Of a stretch of 64,000 nucleotides of DNA, positions 7,868 to 62,762 are shown one piece after another. The stretch's first letter is position 1; every line of letters begins with the position of its first letter. The notes under the pieces are model-generated. The model had not been told where the DNA came from. It made no database searches and was given only the letters and a program-made list of their open reading frames with translations. The stretch is from Nocardioides marinisabuli. GTDB taxonomy: Bacteria > Actinomycetota > Actinomycetes > Propionibacteriales > Nocardioidaceae. Location: positions 1,612,001-1,676,000 of the forward strand of contig NZ_CP059163.1 in the NCBI RefSeq assembly GCF_013466785.1. The letters run 5' to 3'. Made by a program: the position numbers and the translations under genes.

Positions 7868-8337
7868 CCCGCTTCTCCGCCAGCACCGAGGCCACCGCCG
7901 TCGTGAAGGCCACCCGCCAGGAGATCTGGGACCTCCTGGTCGACCCCGACGCGATCGCCGAGATGACCCCCTTCGTCAAGCGCATCACCGCCGACGGTGA
8001 CCACTGGCGCTGGGAGATGAGCGGGCTGGAGGTGCTCGGCAAGAACGTCTCGCCCGCCTTCACCGAGAAGATGACCTTCACCGACCTCGAGCGCATCGAG
8101 TTCCGCCACGACCCGCCCGAGGGCACCACCGAGCGCTCGGCCGTCGAGGGCTGGTACGAGCTCTCCGACGCCGACGAGGGCACCCACCTGGCCACCAACC
8201 TCGAGATCACCCTCGACCTGCCGCTGCCCAAGGTCTCCTCCAAGGCCGTCACCGCCACGATGAGCGGGGTCATCGAGAAGATGGGCGACCGGTTCTCCAA
8301 GAACCTGCTCGACCGGCTGGGCACCACCGAGGCCTGA
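7864..8337 (+). CDS. SRPBCC family protein
   Basis: 157-aa START-like protein (polyketide cyclase/CoxG-type helix-grip fold): the N-terminal strand ATAVVKATRQEIWDLLVDPDAIAEM is followed by a beta sheet and a long C-terminal helix (about 125-155) that would cap the hydrophobic cavity. Members bind lipids or hydrophobic ligands; no ligand can be deduced. ATG overlaps the GPx stop (ATGA), so the pair is co-expressed. A strong hairpin follows the stop. Confidence 0.88.
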   Translation: MTRFSASTEATAVVKATRQEIWDLLVDPDAIAEMTPFVKRITADGDHWRWEMSGLEVLGKNVSPAFTEKMTFTDLERIEFRHDPPEGTTERSAVEGWYELSDADEGTHLATNLEITLDLPLPKVSSKAVTATMSGVIEKMGDRFSKNLLDRLGTTEA

Positions 8338-8357
8338 GCGCCCCCGGCGTACGACGA

Positions 8358-8391
8358 CAGCAGCCCCCGGCCGACCGGCCGGGGGCTGCTG
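8358..8391. terminator. bidirectional hairpin between convergent genes
   Basis: Perfect 15-bp GC-rich stem (8358-8372 with 8377-8391) and a 4-nt loop, between the SRPBCC gene (+) and the MmpL gene (-). No T-tract is needed on either side in high-GC actinobacteria. Confidence 0.75.
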
Positions 8392-8394
8392 CGC

Positions 8395-8442
8395 GTGGTG
8401 CTGGGCCCGGGTGGTGCTGGGCCTGGGTGGTGCTGGGCGCGA
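8395..8442. repeat. 16-bp tandem repeat, three copies
   Basis: Units 8395-8410, 8411-8426 and 8427-8442 all begin GTGGTGCTGGGC; copies 1 and 2 differ at one base and copy 3 diverges in its last four. The array lies between the terminator hairpin and the MmpL stop codon. Confidence 0.8.
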
Positions 8443-8447
8443 GCGGG

Positions 8448-10817
8448 TCAGACCCGCTGGCTCTGCTCGTCGGTGAGCTCGTCGAGCTCGCTGTCGAGGT
8501 CGCTCTCCTCCTCGTGGTAGCCCGGGCCACGGTCGAGCTTCTCGCCCTCCACGTCGACGTCGGGCAGCACCTTGTCGAGCCAGGCCGGCAGCCACCAGGA
8601 GCGGTCGCCCATCAGGTAGAGCAGGGCCGGGATCAGGACCATCCGCACGACGAAGGCGTCGAAGACGATCGCGATCGCCAGCGCGAAGCCCATCGACTTG
8701 ATGATGGCGTCGTCCTGGAGCATGAAGGCGGAGAAGACCGCGGTCATGATCGCGGCGGCGGCGGTCACCACGCGGGCCGAGTTGCGGAACCCGTCGACGA
8801 TCGCGTCGGGGGTCGACATGCCGTGCACCCGGGCCTCGCGGATGCGGGTCACCAGGAAGACCTGGTAGTCCATCGCGAGACCGAAGACGACGCCGATGAG
8901 GAACAGCGGGATGAAGCTGACCAGCGGCTGGCCCTCGACGAATCCGCCCCAGCCGAGCTGGAAGACCGCCACGGTGGCGCCGAGCGTGGCCAGCACCGAG
9001 AGCAGGAAGCCCAGGGTGGCGGTCAGCGGCACCAGGATCGAGCGGAAGACGATCATCAGCAGGATGAAGGCCAGGCCCACGATGATCGACAGGTAGACCG
9101 GCAGCGCGTCGGCCAGGCGGTCGGAGACGTCGGTGGTGATCGCGGTCAGGCCGGTGACACCGAGGTCGGTGCCGGTGGCGTCCTCGATGCCGGACTCGCC
9201 GTCGCGCAGCTCGGTGAGCAGGTCCTGGGCCTCGGCGTCGGCGGGGCCGAACTCGGGCAGCACCTGCACCAGGGCCCCGGTGGGGCTGGCCTCGGGGGTG
9301 CCGGGCTCGGCGGTGGGGTCGGCGTTGGTGGCCACGACCTGGGCGTTCTCGACGCCCTCGAGGCCGCTCGCCCAGCCCACGACCTCGCCGAACGCGGCGC
9401 CCTGCTCGCCGTCGGCCACGTCGCGGGCGTCGACGACGACCAGCAGCGGGGCCTCGCGGCCGGGCCCGAACTCGGCCGCGATGATGTCGGAGGCCTGGCG
9501 CTGGGTGGTGTCGCTGGCGGCGGTGGAGTCGGTGGGGAAGGCCAGCTGCAGCTCCTTGAGCGGGATCGCGAGGGCACCCAGCGCGACCACGACGGCCAGC
9601 ACGAGGGCGACCGGTCGCTTGCCGACCCAGCGCGCCCAGCGCACGCCGTTGTTGACCACCAGGCCCTGCTCGTCGCGCTGCGGGGCGTAGCGGCGCACCT
9701 GGGCGCCGAAGGCCCTGCGGCCCAGCATGCCCAGCACCGCCGGCAGCAGGGTGAGCGAGATCAGCACCGCGACGAAGACGGTGGCCGCGGCGGCCAGACC
9801 CATCGCGGAGAGGAACGGGATGCCCACGACCGAGAGCGCCGAGAGGGCGATCAGCACGGTCAGGCCGGCGAAGACGACCGCCGAGCCGGCGGTGCCGACC
9901 GCGATCCCGACCGCGCGGGCCCGGTCGTCGGTGTGGTGCAGCTCGGTGCGGTAGCGGGCCAGGATGAAGAGCGTGTAGTCGATGCCGACCGCGAGGCCGA
10001 TCATCGTGGCCAGGATCGAGGTGCTGCTGGAGATGTCGACGAAGGCGGTCATCGCGGTGACGCCGGTCAGGCCGATGGCCACGCCGATGAGCGCGGTGAT
10101 GATCGGGAGGCCGGCGGCGACCAGCGAGCCGAAGGTCAGGATCAGCACCAGCAGGGCCACGCCGATGCCGAGGGCCTCGGAGGCCAGGCCGGGGGTGGCG
10201 AAGCCGGTCGCGCCGGGGCCGTTGGCCTCGACGACCAGGCCCTGGTCGCGGGCGTCGTCCATCACCTCGTCGAGCGCGTCGAGCGTCTCCGGCTCGACGT
10301 CGGCGGGCGTCTCGACGTCCCAGGTGTAGGTGATCAGCCCGGTGCGCCCGTCCTCGGTCAGCGGCGAGAGGGCCGCCGCGTCGGCGCGGGCCTGCTGCAC
10401 GTCGCCCCCGCTGGCGCGGGCCTGCTCGACGAGCATCTGCTCCTGGCCGGCCGCGACCTCGCCGGGGGGAAGGATCTCGACGTCGTCGGCCTGCTGGGGT
10501 AGCGCGGCGAGGTCGGCGATGAGCTGGTCGACGACCTCGGCGTTGGCGTCGTCGGCGAGGGTCTCGCCCTCGGGCGCCTGCACCACGACGTTGACGTTGG
10601 CCTGGTCGAAGGCGCTCGTGGCGCCGGGGAAGAGCTCGGCCTGGAGGTCCGCGGCCTGCTCGGAGGGGATGCCGGGGATGGTGAAGTTGTCCGACATCGG
10701 CTTGGAGAAGGCGGCGGCGAGGCCGATGATCACGGCCAGCACGGCCACCCACGCGGCGATGAAGAACGGCCAGCGTCGATAGGCGGTGGTCCCGAGTCGG
10801 GCGAGCAGGGTGGCCAT
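8448..10817 (-). CDS. MmpL/RND-type membrane transporter
   Basis: 789-aa RND-superfamily exporter of the MmpL type, which moves lipids or other hydrophobic compounds across the membrane using the proton gradient. Twelve membrane helices are arranged as two repeats, each with one large periplasmic porter domain. The paired motifs GLAVGIDYTLFILARYR and VFGLAMDYQVFLVTRIRE carry the transmembrane Asp-Tyr pairs of the proton relay. The cytoplasmic C-terminus is short and acidic (EEESDLDSELDEL). ATG at 10817 has a GGAGAGAG ribosome site. The TetR gene 82 nt upstream on the same strand is its likely regulator. Confidence 0.94.
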   Translation of the reverse strand: MATLLARLGTTAYRRWPFFIAAWVAVLAVIIGLAAAFSKPMSDNFTIPGIPSEQAADLQAELFPGATSAFDQANVNVVVQAPEGETLADDANAEVVDQLIADLAALPQQADDVEILPPGEVAAGQEQMLVEQARASGGDVQQARADAAALSPLTEDGRTGLITYTWDVETPADVEPETLDALDEVMDDARDQGLVVEANGPGATGFATPGLASEALGIGVALLVLILTFGSLVAAGLPIITALIGVAIGLTGVTAMTAFVDISSSTSILATMIGLAVGIDYTLFILARYRTELHHTDDRARAVGIAVGTAGSAVVFAGLTVLIALSALSVVGIPFLSAMGLAAAATVFVAVLISLTLLPAVLGMLGRRAFGAQVRRYAPQRDEQGLVVNNGVRWARWVGKRPVALVLAVVVALGALAIPLKELQLAFPTDSTAASDTTQRQASDIIAAEFGPGREAPLLVVVDARDVADGEQGAAFGEVVGWASGLEGVENAQVVATNADPTAEPGTPEASPTGALVQVLPEFGPADAEAQDLLTELRDGESGIEDATGTDLGVTGLTAITTDVSDRLADALPVYLSIIVGLAFILLMIVFRSILVPLTATLGFLLSVLATLGATVAVFQLGWGGFVEGQPLVSFIPLFLIGVVFGLAMDYQVFLVTRIREARVHGMSTPDAIVDGFRNSARVVTAAAAIMTAVFSAFMLQDDAIIKSMGFALAIAIVFDAFVVRMVLIPALLYLMGDRSWWLPAWLDKVLPDVDVEGEKLDRGPGYHEEESDLDSELDELTDEQSQRV

Positions 10818-16290: not shown

Positions 16291-16866
16291 GTGAGCACCG
16301 CCGCCCTCCCCAGCATGCGCGACCGTGTCGTCGACGCCGCCGTCGTGCTGACCACCGAGGTGGGGTGGGCCAAGGTGACGATGGCGCGCCTGGCCGACGA
16401 GGTCGGCGTGTCGCGCCAGACCGTCTACAACGAGGTCGGCACCAAGGCCGGGCTCGCCGAGGCGATGATCCTGCGCGAGCTCGACCGCTTCCTGGCCGCG
16501 GTGACCGCCTCCTTCGACCAGCACCCCGACGACCTCGTCGAGGCGATCCGCGCCGCGGCCCGGGCCGTCCTGGAGGTGGCTCCCAGCAACCCCCTGCTGC
16601 ACGCCGTCGTCTCGGCCACCCACGGCGCCGACACCGAGCTGCTGCCGCTGCTGACCACCCACGCGGGCTCGCTGCTCGCGGCGGCCCAGGACGTCATCGC
16701 CGCGCGCATCGCGCCGTACGACGTCGACCTGGGCGCCGAGGAGCTCGACGCCGCCATCGACATGGTGGTGCGGATCGTGCTCAGCCACGTCATGCAGCCC
16801 TCCGGCCCCGCCGACCGCACCGCCGACCGGATCGCCTGGATCGCCGCCCGGGTGCTCGGCTCCTAG
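16291..16866 (+). CDS. TetR family regulator of the alkane hydroxylase operon
   Basis: 191 aa with an N-terminal HTH (TMARLADEVGVSRQTVYNEVGTK) and a helical effector domain. It follows alkB and ferredoxin in the order known for alkB-rubredoxin-TetR loci of Rhodococcus, Gordonia and mycobacteria, and is the likely ligand-sensing repressor. The GTG at 16291 lies 7 nt after TACACT, so it has its own leaderless promoter besides possible read-through. Confidence 0.92.
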   Translation: MSTAALPSMRDRVVDAAVVLTTEVGWAKVTMARLADEVGVSRQTVYNEVGTKAGLAEAMILRELDRFLAAVTASFDQHPDDLVEAIRAAARAVLEVAPSNPLLHAVVSATHGADTELLPLLTTHAGSLLAAAQDVIAARIAPYDVDLGAEELDAAIDMVVRIVLSHVMQPSGPADRTADRIAWIAARVLGS

Positions 16867-16878
16867 CGGGCCGGGCGC

Positions 16879-16972
16879 GGGAGTTTCATCGGGCACCCGA
16901 CGAAGCTCCTGCCGGGACCATGAAGCTTCATGGTCCCGGCGACAGGTTCATCGGGTGCCCGATGAAACTCCC
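16879..16972. repeat. 94-bp compound palindrome
   Basis: Outer arms of 22 bp (16879-16900 and 16951-16972) are perfect reverse complements, and the centre (16911-16940) is a perfect 30-bp palindrome with no loop. Each outer arm with its flank also folds on itself (TTCATCGGG/CCCGATGAA). It separates a + strand TetR gene from a convergent gene and overlaps the last codons of the latter; it could act as a terminator. Confidence 0.85.
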
Positions 16973-17838
16973 TCGGCACGGGCCCGAGACCGCTCGCGCG
17001 CCTCGCGGAAGGCGGCGGTGACGTACGCCGGCACCGGGAGGCCCTTGTCGCGGGCCCACAGCAGCTCCATCTCGACGCGCGCGATCTGGGCGGTGAAGTC
17101 GGAGGAGTCGTCGATGCCGAGGGTGGCCATCAGGTCGCCGAAGTCGGCCAGCTGCTCGTCGTCGTTGGCGCCGACAGGGGAGAAGGAGAGCCGGCGCAGG
17201 TGGCGCACCAGCCACTTCTGCCAGGGCGCCAGCTCGGCCCACAGCCCGCGCGCGGAGAGCTGGTAGAAGGCGAAGTGCCCCGGCTCCTGGCGCTTGATCG
17301 GGGCGATGATGGTCTCGGCGACCGCCTGCTCGCCCATCTCCCGGACGCCGTCGTGGAGCAGGTTGTAGGCCAGCACCGCCGAGCGCTCGGTGGCCATGCC
17401 GGTGAGGTAGTAGAGCATCCGCGAGACGTCCTGGAAGGCCGACGCGTGCCCGAGCGCACCGAGCACCTTGAGCTTGGTGCCGATCGAGTCGAGGTCGGCG
17501 TCGGCGGGCGGGCGGCCCAGGCGTACCTGCAGCTCGTCGAGGATCCGCCCGTGCTGGATCTCCTGGGGCTGCCACACGTCGCGGTAGAAGTGCACGTCGA
17601 CCTCGGGCGGGTCGGGCAGCATCGTCATCAGCTCGAGGACGTTGCGGTCGACCTCGAGCTCGACCCGGGCCATGTAGTCGAGCACGTGGCCGAAGCGCGC
17701 CTCGAAGCCGACCGGGTCGACGACGGTGAAGTCGACCGAGTCGAGGCTGATGGGCGGGTGCTCGGCGCCGAGCCGGTCGACGTGGTCGACCAGGCGCTGG
17801 TCGGCGGCGCTGCGGGCGGACGGGCGGGAGCGGGACAC
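16948..17838 (-). CDS. ferritin-like diiron protein, acyl-ACP desaturase type
   Basis: 296 aa, mostly helical. The diiron ligand pattern occurs twice: Glu near 60 with E93-x-x-H96 (QEIQH), and E151 with E185-x-x-H188 (EPGH), matching soluble acyl-ACP desaturases (stearoyl-ACP desaturase/DesA family). A lipid-modifying oxidation near the alkane operon is plausible but unproven. GTG start is 6 nt after a TAGGAT -10 box that overlaps the divergent MFS promoter. The last residues (EGVSSGTR) are encoded by the 94-bp palindromic element, so the natural C-terminus may have been altered. Confidence 0.8.
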
Positions 17839-37492: not shown

Positions 37493-37553
37493 CCGGTCCC
37501 CCCTCTGCTGGTCGGGATCCACACGGCTCGCGCGGCGGGTCAGCGGTGAGCGA

Positions 37554-37655
37554 GCAACCATCGGTCGCCCCGAACCGGTTGCCAGCCCACCGCCGGCCAC
37601 GGGGTACGGAGCCCAGCGGTGCGCTGGCAACCGAACCGGTACTGCGAACGGTTGC
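37554..37655. repeat. two 29-bp dyads GCAACC-N17-GGTTGC
   Basis: Dyads at 37554-37582 and 37627-37655, same length and spacer. Lies between convergent genes in a 193-bp space that holds nothing else recognisable. Confidence 0.65.
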
Positions 37656-37685
37656 TGACGCACCGCCCGCGGCGACGGGCGCCGC

Positions 37686-56797: not shown

Positions 56798-56801
56798 GGC
56801 C

Positions 56802-56890
56802 GAGCAGTCACTTGTGAACCCTCGAGCGGTCACTTTCGAACCCGGCCGTGGGTCGAAAGTGACTGGTCGGTGGTTCAGAAGTGACCGCTC
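56802..56890. repeat. 22-bp repeat, family C, locus 1 (two units head-to-head with two)
   Basis: Units 56802-56823 and 56824-56845 in one orientation, one central base, then 56847-56868 and 56869-56890 in the other. Units carry GAA(A/G)(A/G)TGAC and end in GACCGCTC or GACTGGTC. Fills most of the space between the two lipoprotein genes. Confidence 0.9.
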
Positions 56891-56987
56891 GGCCGGCGGC
56901 GCCGTTCAGGTTCCTCTCGGGAAGGTGTGGCACCGTCGAGGGCTGCGTCGGGCGGCTGCCCGGCGCCCTCGATCGGAAGGACCCCCC

Positions 56988-62642: not shown

Positions 62643-62694
62643 GACCGCTCGGTGGTTCGAAACTGACCGGTCGGTGGTGCAGAAGTGACCGCTC
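62643..62694. repeat. 22-bp repeat, family C, locus 2 (two and a third units)
   Basis: A partial unit (62643-62650) followed by 62651-62672 and 62673-62694, both beginning GGTGGT and ending ACCGGTC or ACCGCTC. Same orientation as the right half of the locus at 56802-56890; both are followed by GGCCGG. Confidence 0.9.
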
Positions 62695-62762
62695 GGCCGG
62701 CCCCCACCCACGCACCCCTCGGGGGGAGTGGCGGGGTACGCCGCCGTGGCAGCGTCGGAGGC

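Follow-up and report, generated by a model that had tools for sequence, protein, structure and literature searches.

A protein-coding gene of Nocardioides marinisabuli ends inside a 94-bp palindrome. Is this palindrome a mobile repeat that has recoded the protein, a conserved terminator, or part of another kind of system? We addressed this question for a window of 64,000 nucleotides (contig NZ_CP059163.1, positions 1,612,001 to 1,676,000) and for the corresponding sites in related genomes. The answer that we favor, with a probability of roughly 0.7, is that the 94-bp sequence is a non-autonomous, gene-less member of a two-part system, the other part being a resident nuclease gene flanked by the same palindromes, and that its copies are homogenized by conversion.

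Structure of the 94-bp element

The initial annotation described a compound palindrome with 22-bp arms, a 30-bp center, and a single point of symmetry, and the sequence bears this out. The element occupies window positions 16879 to 16972, GGGAGTTTCATCGGGCACCCGA...TCGGGTGCCCGATGAAACTCCC. Its perfect 22-bp outer arms and its perfect 30-bp central palindrome B (16911 to 16940, GCCGGGACCATGAAG on one side of the center and CTTCATGGTCCCGGC on the other) share one symmetry point at 16925/16926. Each outer arm itself lies within a palindrome (A at 16884 to 16905, TTTCATCGGGCACCCGACGAAG; A' at 16946 to 16967, GTTCATCGGGTGCCCGATGAAA), so the element consists of three dyads, A, B, and A', with centers 31 bp apart; no strand is assigned to the element or its dyads. 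The predicted RNA fold has an energy of -81.3 kcal/mol, compared to -32.4 +/- 3.3 kcal/mol in shuffled sequences (z = -15), and the number of matches to the outer palindrome expected from dinucleotide shuffles is 0. Central palindrome B varies most among copies, and 31 cells are changed at both partners of a pair among the copies from the N. marinisabuli genome. At the level of dyads, this covariation fits one long hairpin and three local hairpins alike.

The element lies between convergent genes. A TetR-family gene (16291 to 16866, plus strand, with TetR_C_35 and TetR_N domains) ends 12 bp before it, and a gene for a 296-aa protein (16948 to 17838, minus strand) ends within it. The latter gene had been labeled diiron or desaturase-like, a label for which Pfam, NCBIfam, and PDB sequence searches returned no family match. 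The element contains its last 7 sense codons, the stop codon TGA, and one further base, and gives the protein the tail EGVSSGTR* (asterisks mark stop codons) less the first base. Recoding of the C-terminus is upheld by comparison with relatives. In genome G013, the protein ends ...VARA|AGDSSAGR*, of which GDSSAGR* comes from the G013 element, and in relatives without an element it ends ...ELARLRRAA* or similarly. Four other copies in N. marinisabuli lend neighboring genes an in-frame -SSGTR* tail. Recoding occurs at 5 of about 24 sites, as a side effect and not as the main feature of the element.

The initial annotation had named a shared C-terminus and hairpin in orthologs as the mark of a conserved terminator. 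This case is borne out only partly. A close relative does have a hairpin at this site, but its sequence differs: the elements between the TetR gene and its neighbor are of differing sequence in N. marinisabuli, G013, G037, and others, and four relatives (G008, G041, G005, and G021) have only 38 to 67 bp there and no element.

Dispersed copies in the N. marinisabuli genome

A search of the N. marinisabuli genome (4.17 Mb, one contig) with the outer palindrome returned dozens of occurrences. They amount to approximately 26 copies of the element, as expected for the dispersed repeat first suggested: 22 intact copies, all with the same 94-bp length and with outer palindromes 62 bp apart, plus fragments or truncated copies. 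Solitary palindromes are broken copies, except for one pair that brackets a gene (see below). All 24 copies analyzed are intergenic according to a home-made gene caller, and 12 of them lie between convergent genes, compared to 19 of 99 neighboring gene pairs (p = 0.003). Across a sample of 197 Nocardioides genomes, exact palindromes of this type occur in four: N. marinisabuli (41), G013 (11), G108 (3), and G189 (1). An Rfam search with the element gave two sub-threshold miRNA matches attributable to chance and nothing else.

One intact copy is preceded, at a distance of 88 bp, by a tandem partial duplicate (L083, 2918 to 3001; genome position 875487). The window also holds an imperfect compound inverted repeat at 37543 to 37666, with 54-bp arms that are 72% complementary, which we assigned to no family.

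The palindrome-flanked nuclease gene

The exceptional pair of palindromes brackets a gene at 3859678 to 3860843, the sole gene there between these palindromes. The order at this locus is A-B-gene-B'-A', and that of the window copy is A-B-A'. In the whole genome, we found no DDE transposase with the same ends and no gene other than the nuclease between these palindromes. The gene product has an AbiEi_4 winged helix at its N-terminus and a nuclease domain at its C-terminus; its DUF559 match scores just below the Pfam cut-off, so the DUF559 label is approximate. A sequence search of the PDB with the nuclease profile found no match, and matches came from the fold search alone. With the AlphaFold model (pLDDT 90) as query, Foldseek retrieved AbiEi (6y8q), the catalytic domain of I-Bth0305I (3r3p, TM 0.70 by target length), and Vsr (1cw0). 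The PD-(D/E)XK catalytic residues E202, D235, E246, and D248 are invariant across 18 homologous sequences. The partner protein is therefore predicted to be an AbiEi-type winged helix fused to a Vsr/I-Bth0305I-like PD-(D/E)XK nuclease.

The neighbors of this gene in N. marinisabuli are a thiolase gene and a sulfotransferase-like gene, and no toxin gene was seen at the locus. The same thiolase gene adjoins the nuclease gene at approximately 34 loci (some of them duplicated between collections), which indicates that the nuclease gene is mostly inherited in place; to judge from these comparisons, it appears to be immobile at present. N. cremeus, the closest to N. marinisabuli by thiolase, has a Y-type nuclease (types are described below); identity between the two is 65% for the nuclease gene and 97% for the thiolase gene. 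In the nuclease tree, N. marinisabuli groups with G013, whereas N. cremeus groups with G096; the thiolase tree places all four in one clade of unresolved order. Either allele replacement or very fast divergence would explain this discord.

Terminal inverted repeats across the nuclease family

Palindromic ends are a general property of this gene family. Terminal inverted repeats (TIRs) are present at 32 of 32 testable Nocardioides nuclease homologs (E <= 2.5e-8) and at 0 of 300 controls, which were random window segments rather than matched intergenic sites. Among named genomes, TIRs occur at 41 of 48 nuclease genes compared to 0 of 96 outer-flank controls; this set partly overlaps the 32 Nocardioides genes, and in several of our counts the same sequences recur in more than one collection. 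Of 25 nuclease genes in a phylum-wide sample, 20 have TIRs at E < 1e-5 (no control re-used). The TIR sequences vary between genomes, and the dyads are usually 31 bp apart whatever their sequence: adjacent dyads have this spacing in 18 of 22 cases at a strict threshold and in 30 of 39 at a looser one. Homologs L108 to L110 have ends made of tandem 21- to 22-bp repeats instead. Given the matching ends at nuclease genes, the window copy appears to be a MITE-like version, A-B-A', of the element A-B-gene-B'-A' from which the gene is missing.

Two more nuclease genes in the N. marinisabuli genome have their own broods. The second, L107, has 81-bp ends and six gene-less copies of 94 bp, along with further single-ended ones; the third, L108, has a large brood with tens of matching places in the genome. 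In one sibling brood, the copies are again 94 bp long and 93 to 96% identical to the TIR of their gene. Each of the three genes thus has repeats that bear its own ends. The window itself holds, at 56798 to 56894 (no strand assigned), another element of this broad class, which matches the TIR of L108 and is a full member of that brood; a partial repeat of the L108 type lies at 62652 to 62701. The initial annotation, right about a dispersed repeat that supplies the end of the neighboring protein, missed the link to the nuclease, the sibling broods, and the turnover between species described next.

Sequence turnover at shared sites

The element sites are old, and related species have them in common. 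With the same flanks, an element is present at no fewer than 14 N. marinisabuli sites (at least 14) in G013 and at nine in G096. The copies are X-type in N. marinisabuli (CATCGGGNNCCCGATG) and Y-type in G096 (CATCGGCCGGCCGATG); G013 contains both types, with hybrids among them. Elements have a mean identity of 0.803 within N. marinisabuli and of 0.831 within G096. Between these two genomes, at orthologous sites with flanks that are mostly 77 to 95% identical, the value is 0.627. We compared 11 pairs of orthologous elements from N. marinisabuli and G096, two of which are supported by one flank only. Their 72-bp interior (element positions 12 to 83) has an identity of 0.545 compared to 0.554 in permuted pairs (p = 0.86), which is no orthology signal, whereas the outer 7+7 bp retain one (0.779 compared to 0.680, p = 0.0008). 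An interior that has lost the signal inside outermost bases that keep it is the pattern predicted by in-place gene conversion of the interior; excision followed by fresh insertion, or slow mutation, predicts otherwise.

One site also alternates between forms. At position 2062265, N. marinisabuli has a gene-less copy, and the same flanks enclose a nuclease gene, plus other DNA, in G176, G097, N. litoris, and Nocardioides YR527. To judge from these alignments, one chromosomal site can hold either the gene-less or the gene-bearing form. Against the system that we favor, the match between nuclease type and repeat type is not strict, since G013 combines an X-type nuclease with repeats of both types, and a few X palindromes occur in two genomes that lack an X-type gene.

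It also counts against this system that, among the close relatives compared, we found no clean new insertion. Two candidate empty sites in G013 were rejected: at L098 the remnant GATGAAC is retained, which indicates loss, and at L086 the difference is larger and untidy. By eye, no target duplications were seen around L107-type copies or in the cross-species alignments.

G013 carries chimeric A-B-A-B-A arrays at L202 and L205, in which X-type units are joined to Y-type units. It also has a 1.36-kb insert (L240, about 8254 to 9717) with 22-bp repeat borders of the L109/L110 type at the site of X-type copy L094; the insert contains no gene like L106, L107, L108, or L110, and we therefore left it out of the nuclease elements. 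In other Nocardioides (L179, L180, and L306), another compound palindrome, GTTCACCGAGGTAACTCGGTG...CACCGAGTTACCTCGGTGAGCAT, is found close to the ends of orthologous genes.

Comparison with known systems and alternative explanations

REPINs are inverted palindromic doublets whose RAYT partner occurs as a single copy and is passed on vertically (PMC3116915, PMC8049555). The elements described here resemble them in their short, mostly extragenic inverted palindromic units with perfectly conserved spacing, and in the repeats that flank a partner gene long inherited at one site. A REPIN-RAYT system with an unusual repeat would thus account for palindromic doublets of ~100 bp in intergenic regions and for a single-copy partner gene kept vertically. 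However, a search of the N. marinisabuli genome for Y1_Tnp (PF01797), the RAYT domain, found no match, and the same search was positive in 5 of 14 control genomes. The flanked gene encodes an unrelated enzyme, an AbiEi_4/DUF559-like winged helix with a Vsr-like PD-(D/E)XK nuclease; in addition, there are three dyads 31 bp apart, and at fixed sites the sequence of the interior changes from species to species. Lacking a RAYT and having an unrelated partner, the elements are not classed as REPINs, and we regard this explanation as highly improbable.

The size and TIRs of the element are also like those of MITEs, non-autonomous derivatives that share TIRs with a gene-bearing element. Since autonomous transposons are frequently lost, the repeats might be MITEs of an ordinary DDE transposon that has disappeared, with the nuclease gene a passenger captured between two copies. 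Capture fits poorly with a single gene family that has such ends in 32 of 32 and 41 of 48 cases with unrelated repeat sequences, or with a genome in which three of these genes have a brood apiece. Together with the lack of a DDE transposase and of any target duplication seen, this makes a lost transposon quite improbable.

A third possibility is that the elements are selected binding sites or bidirectional terminators, that the AbiEi-nuclease is a regulator, and that the sites track its changing DNA-binding domain. AbiEi proteins repress their own promoters via inverted repeats (PMC7319586), and the strong hairpins and excess of copies between convergent genes would suit such a role. Yet half of the copies lie elsewhere than between convergent genes, the gene has repeats downstream as well as upstream, and the window copy is absent from related species. 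A scan of 16700 to 17150 for a GC hairpin followed by a T-run found none, its scope being T-run terminators and not the actinobacterial ones that lack T-runs. Homogenization also extends over the whole 72-bp interior, beyond any core, regardless of site. We consider this explanation unlikely.

Other known systems share single features with the palindrome-nuclease system. Like the EDxHD/Vsr-like homing endonucleases (I-Bth0305I), it has the nuclease-domain fold and a conversion pattern that resembles homing, but there is no intron or intein, palindromes flank the gene, and partner sites are many and dispersed. With AbiE type IV toxin-antitoxin systems, it shares the N-terminal winged helix (AbiEi_4; 6y8q), of a family known for inverted-repeat binding; here, a nuclease domain replaces the partner arrangement of the antitoxin part, and the neighbors are thiolase and sulfotransferase-like genes. 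Rickettsia palindromic elements are palindromic repeats as well and likewise contribute residues to proteins; in contrast, the present elements form short C-terminal tails at some sites only and are associated with a nuclease gene. No tested known family fits the palindrome-nuclease system, and we found no earlier description of the association of palindromic ends with this nuclease in the open-access literature.

Proposed mechanism and implications

Under the two-part system that we favor, the resident nuclease probably spreads or rewrites the repeats. AbiEi-family antitoxins bind inverted repeats (PMC7319586), and the partner protein may likewise bind the dyads, whose 31-bp phasing would place them on one face of the duplex. 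The nuclease would then cut the element, and repair templated by another copy would overwrite the interior, a homing-like conversion. That the conversion of interiors is driven by the nuclease is plausible. Spread to new, mostly intergenic sites would be rarer than conversion, and an element landing at the end of a gene would supply its stop codon. Because B is palindromic, two copies of B are also direct repeats, and a deletion between them could turn the gene-bearing form into A-B-A'. Whether all this amounts to an unrecognized class of bacterial element we put at about even odds: such a class would have an AbiEi-type reader and a Vsr-like nuclease between palindromic ends, recognition of dyads three helical turns apart, and homing-like rewriting of a gene-less brood across the genome, and a new nuclease allele would thereby bring about a change in every copy.

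Actinobacteria commonly encode AbiEi_4/DUF559-like proteins, which are annotated either as orphan antitoxins or as unknown endonucleases. Since palindromic ends and gene-less broods constantly accompany them, these proteins may share a role in repeat maintenance. This would be a REPIN-RAYT-like system built on an unrelated enzyme, and its fixed, shared sites offer a natural experiment on the homogenization of dispersed repeats.
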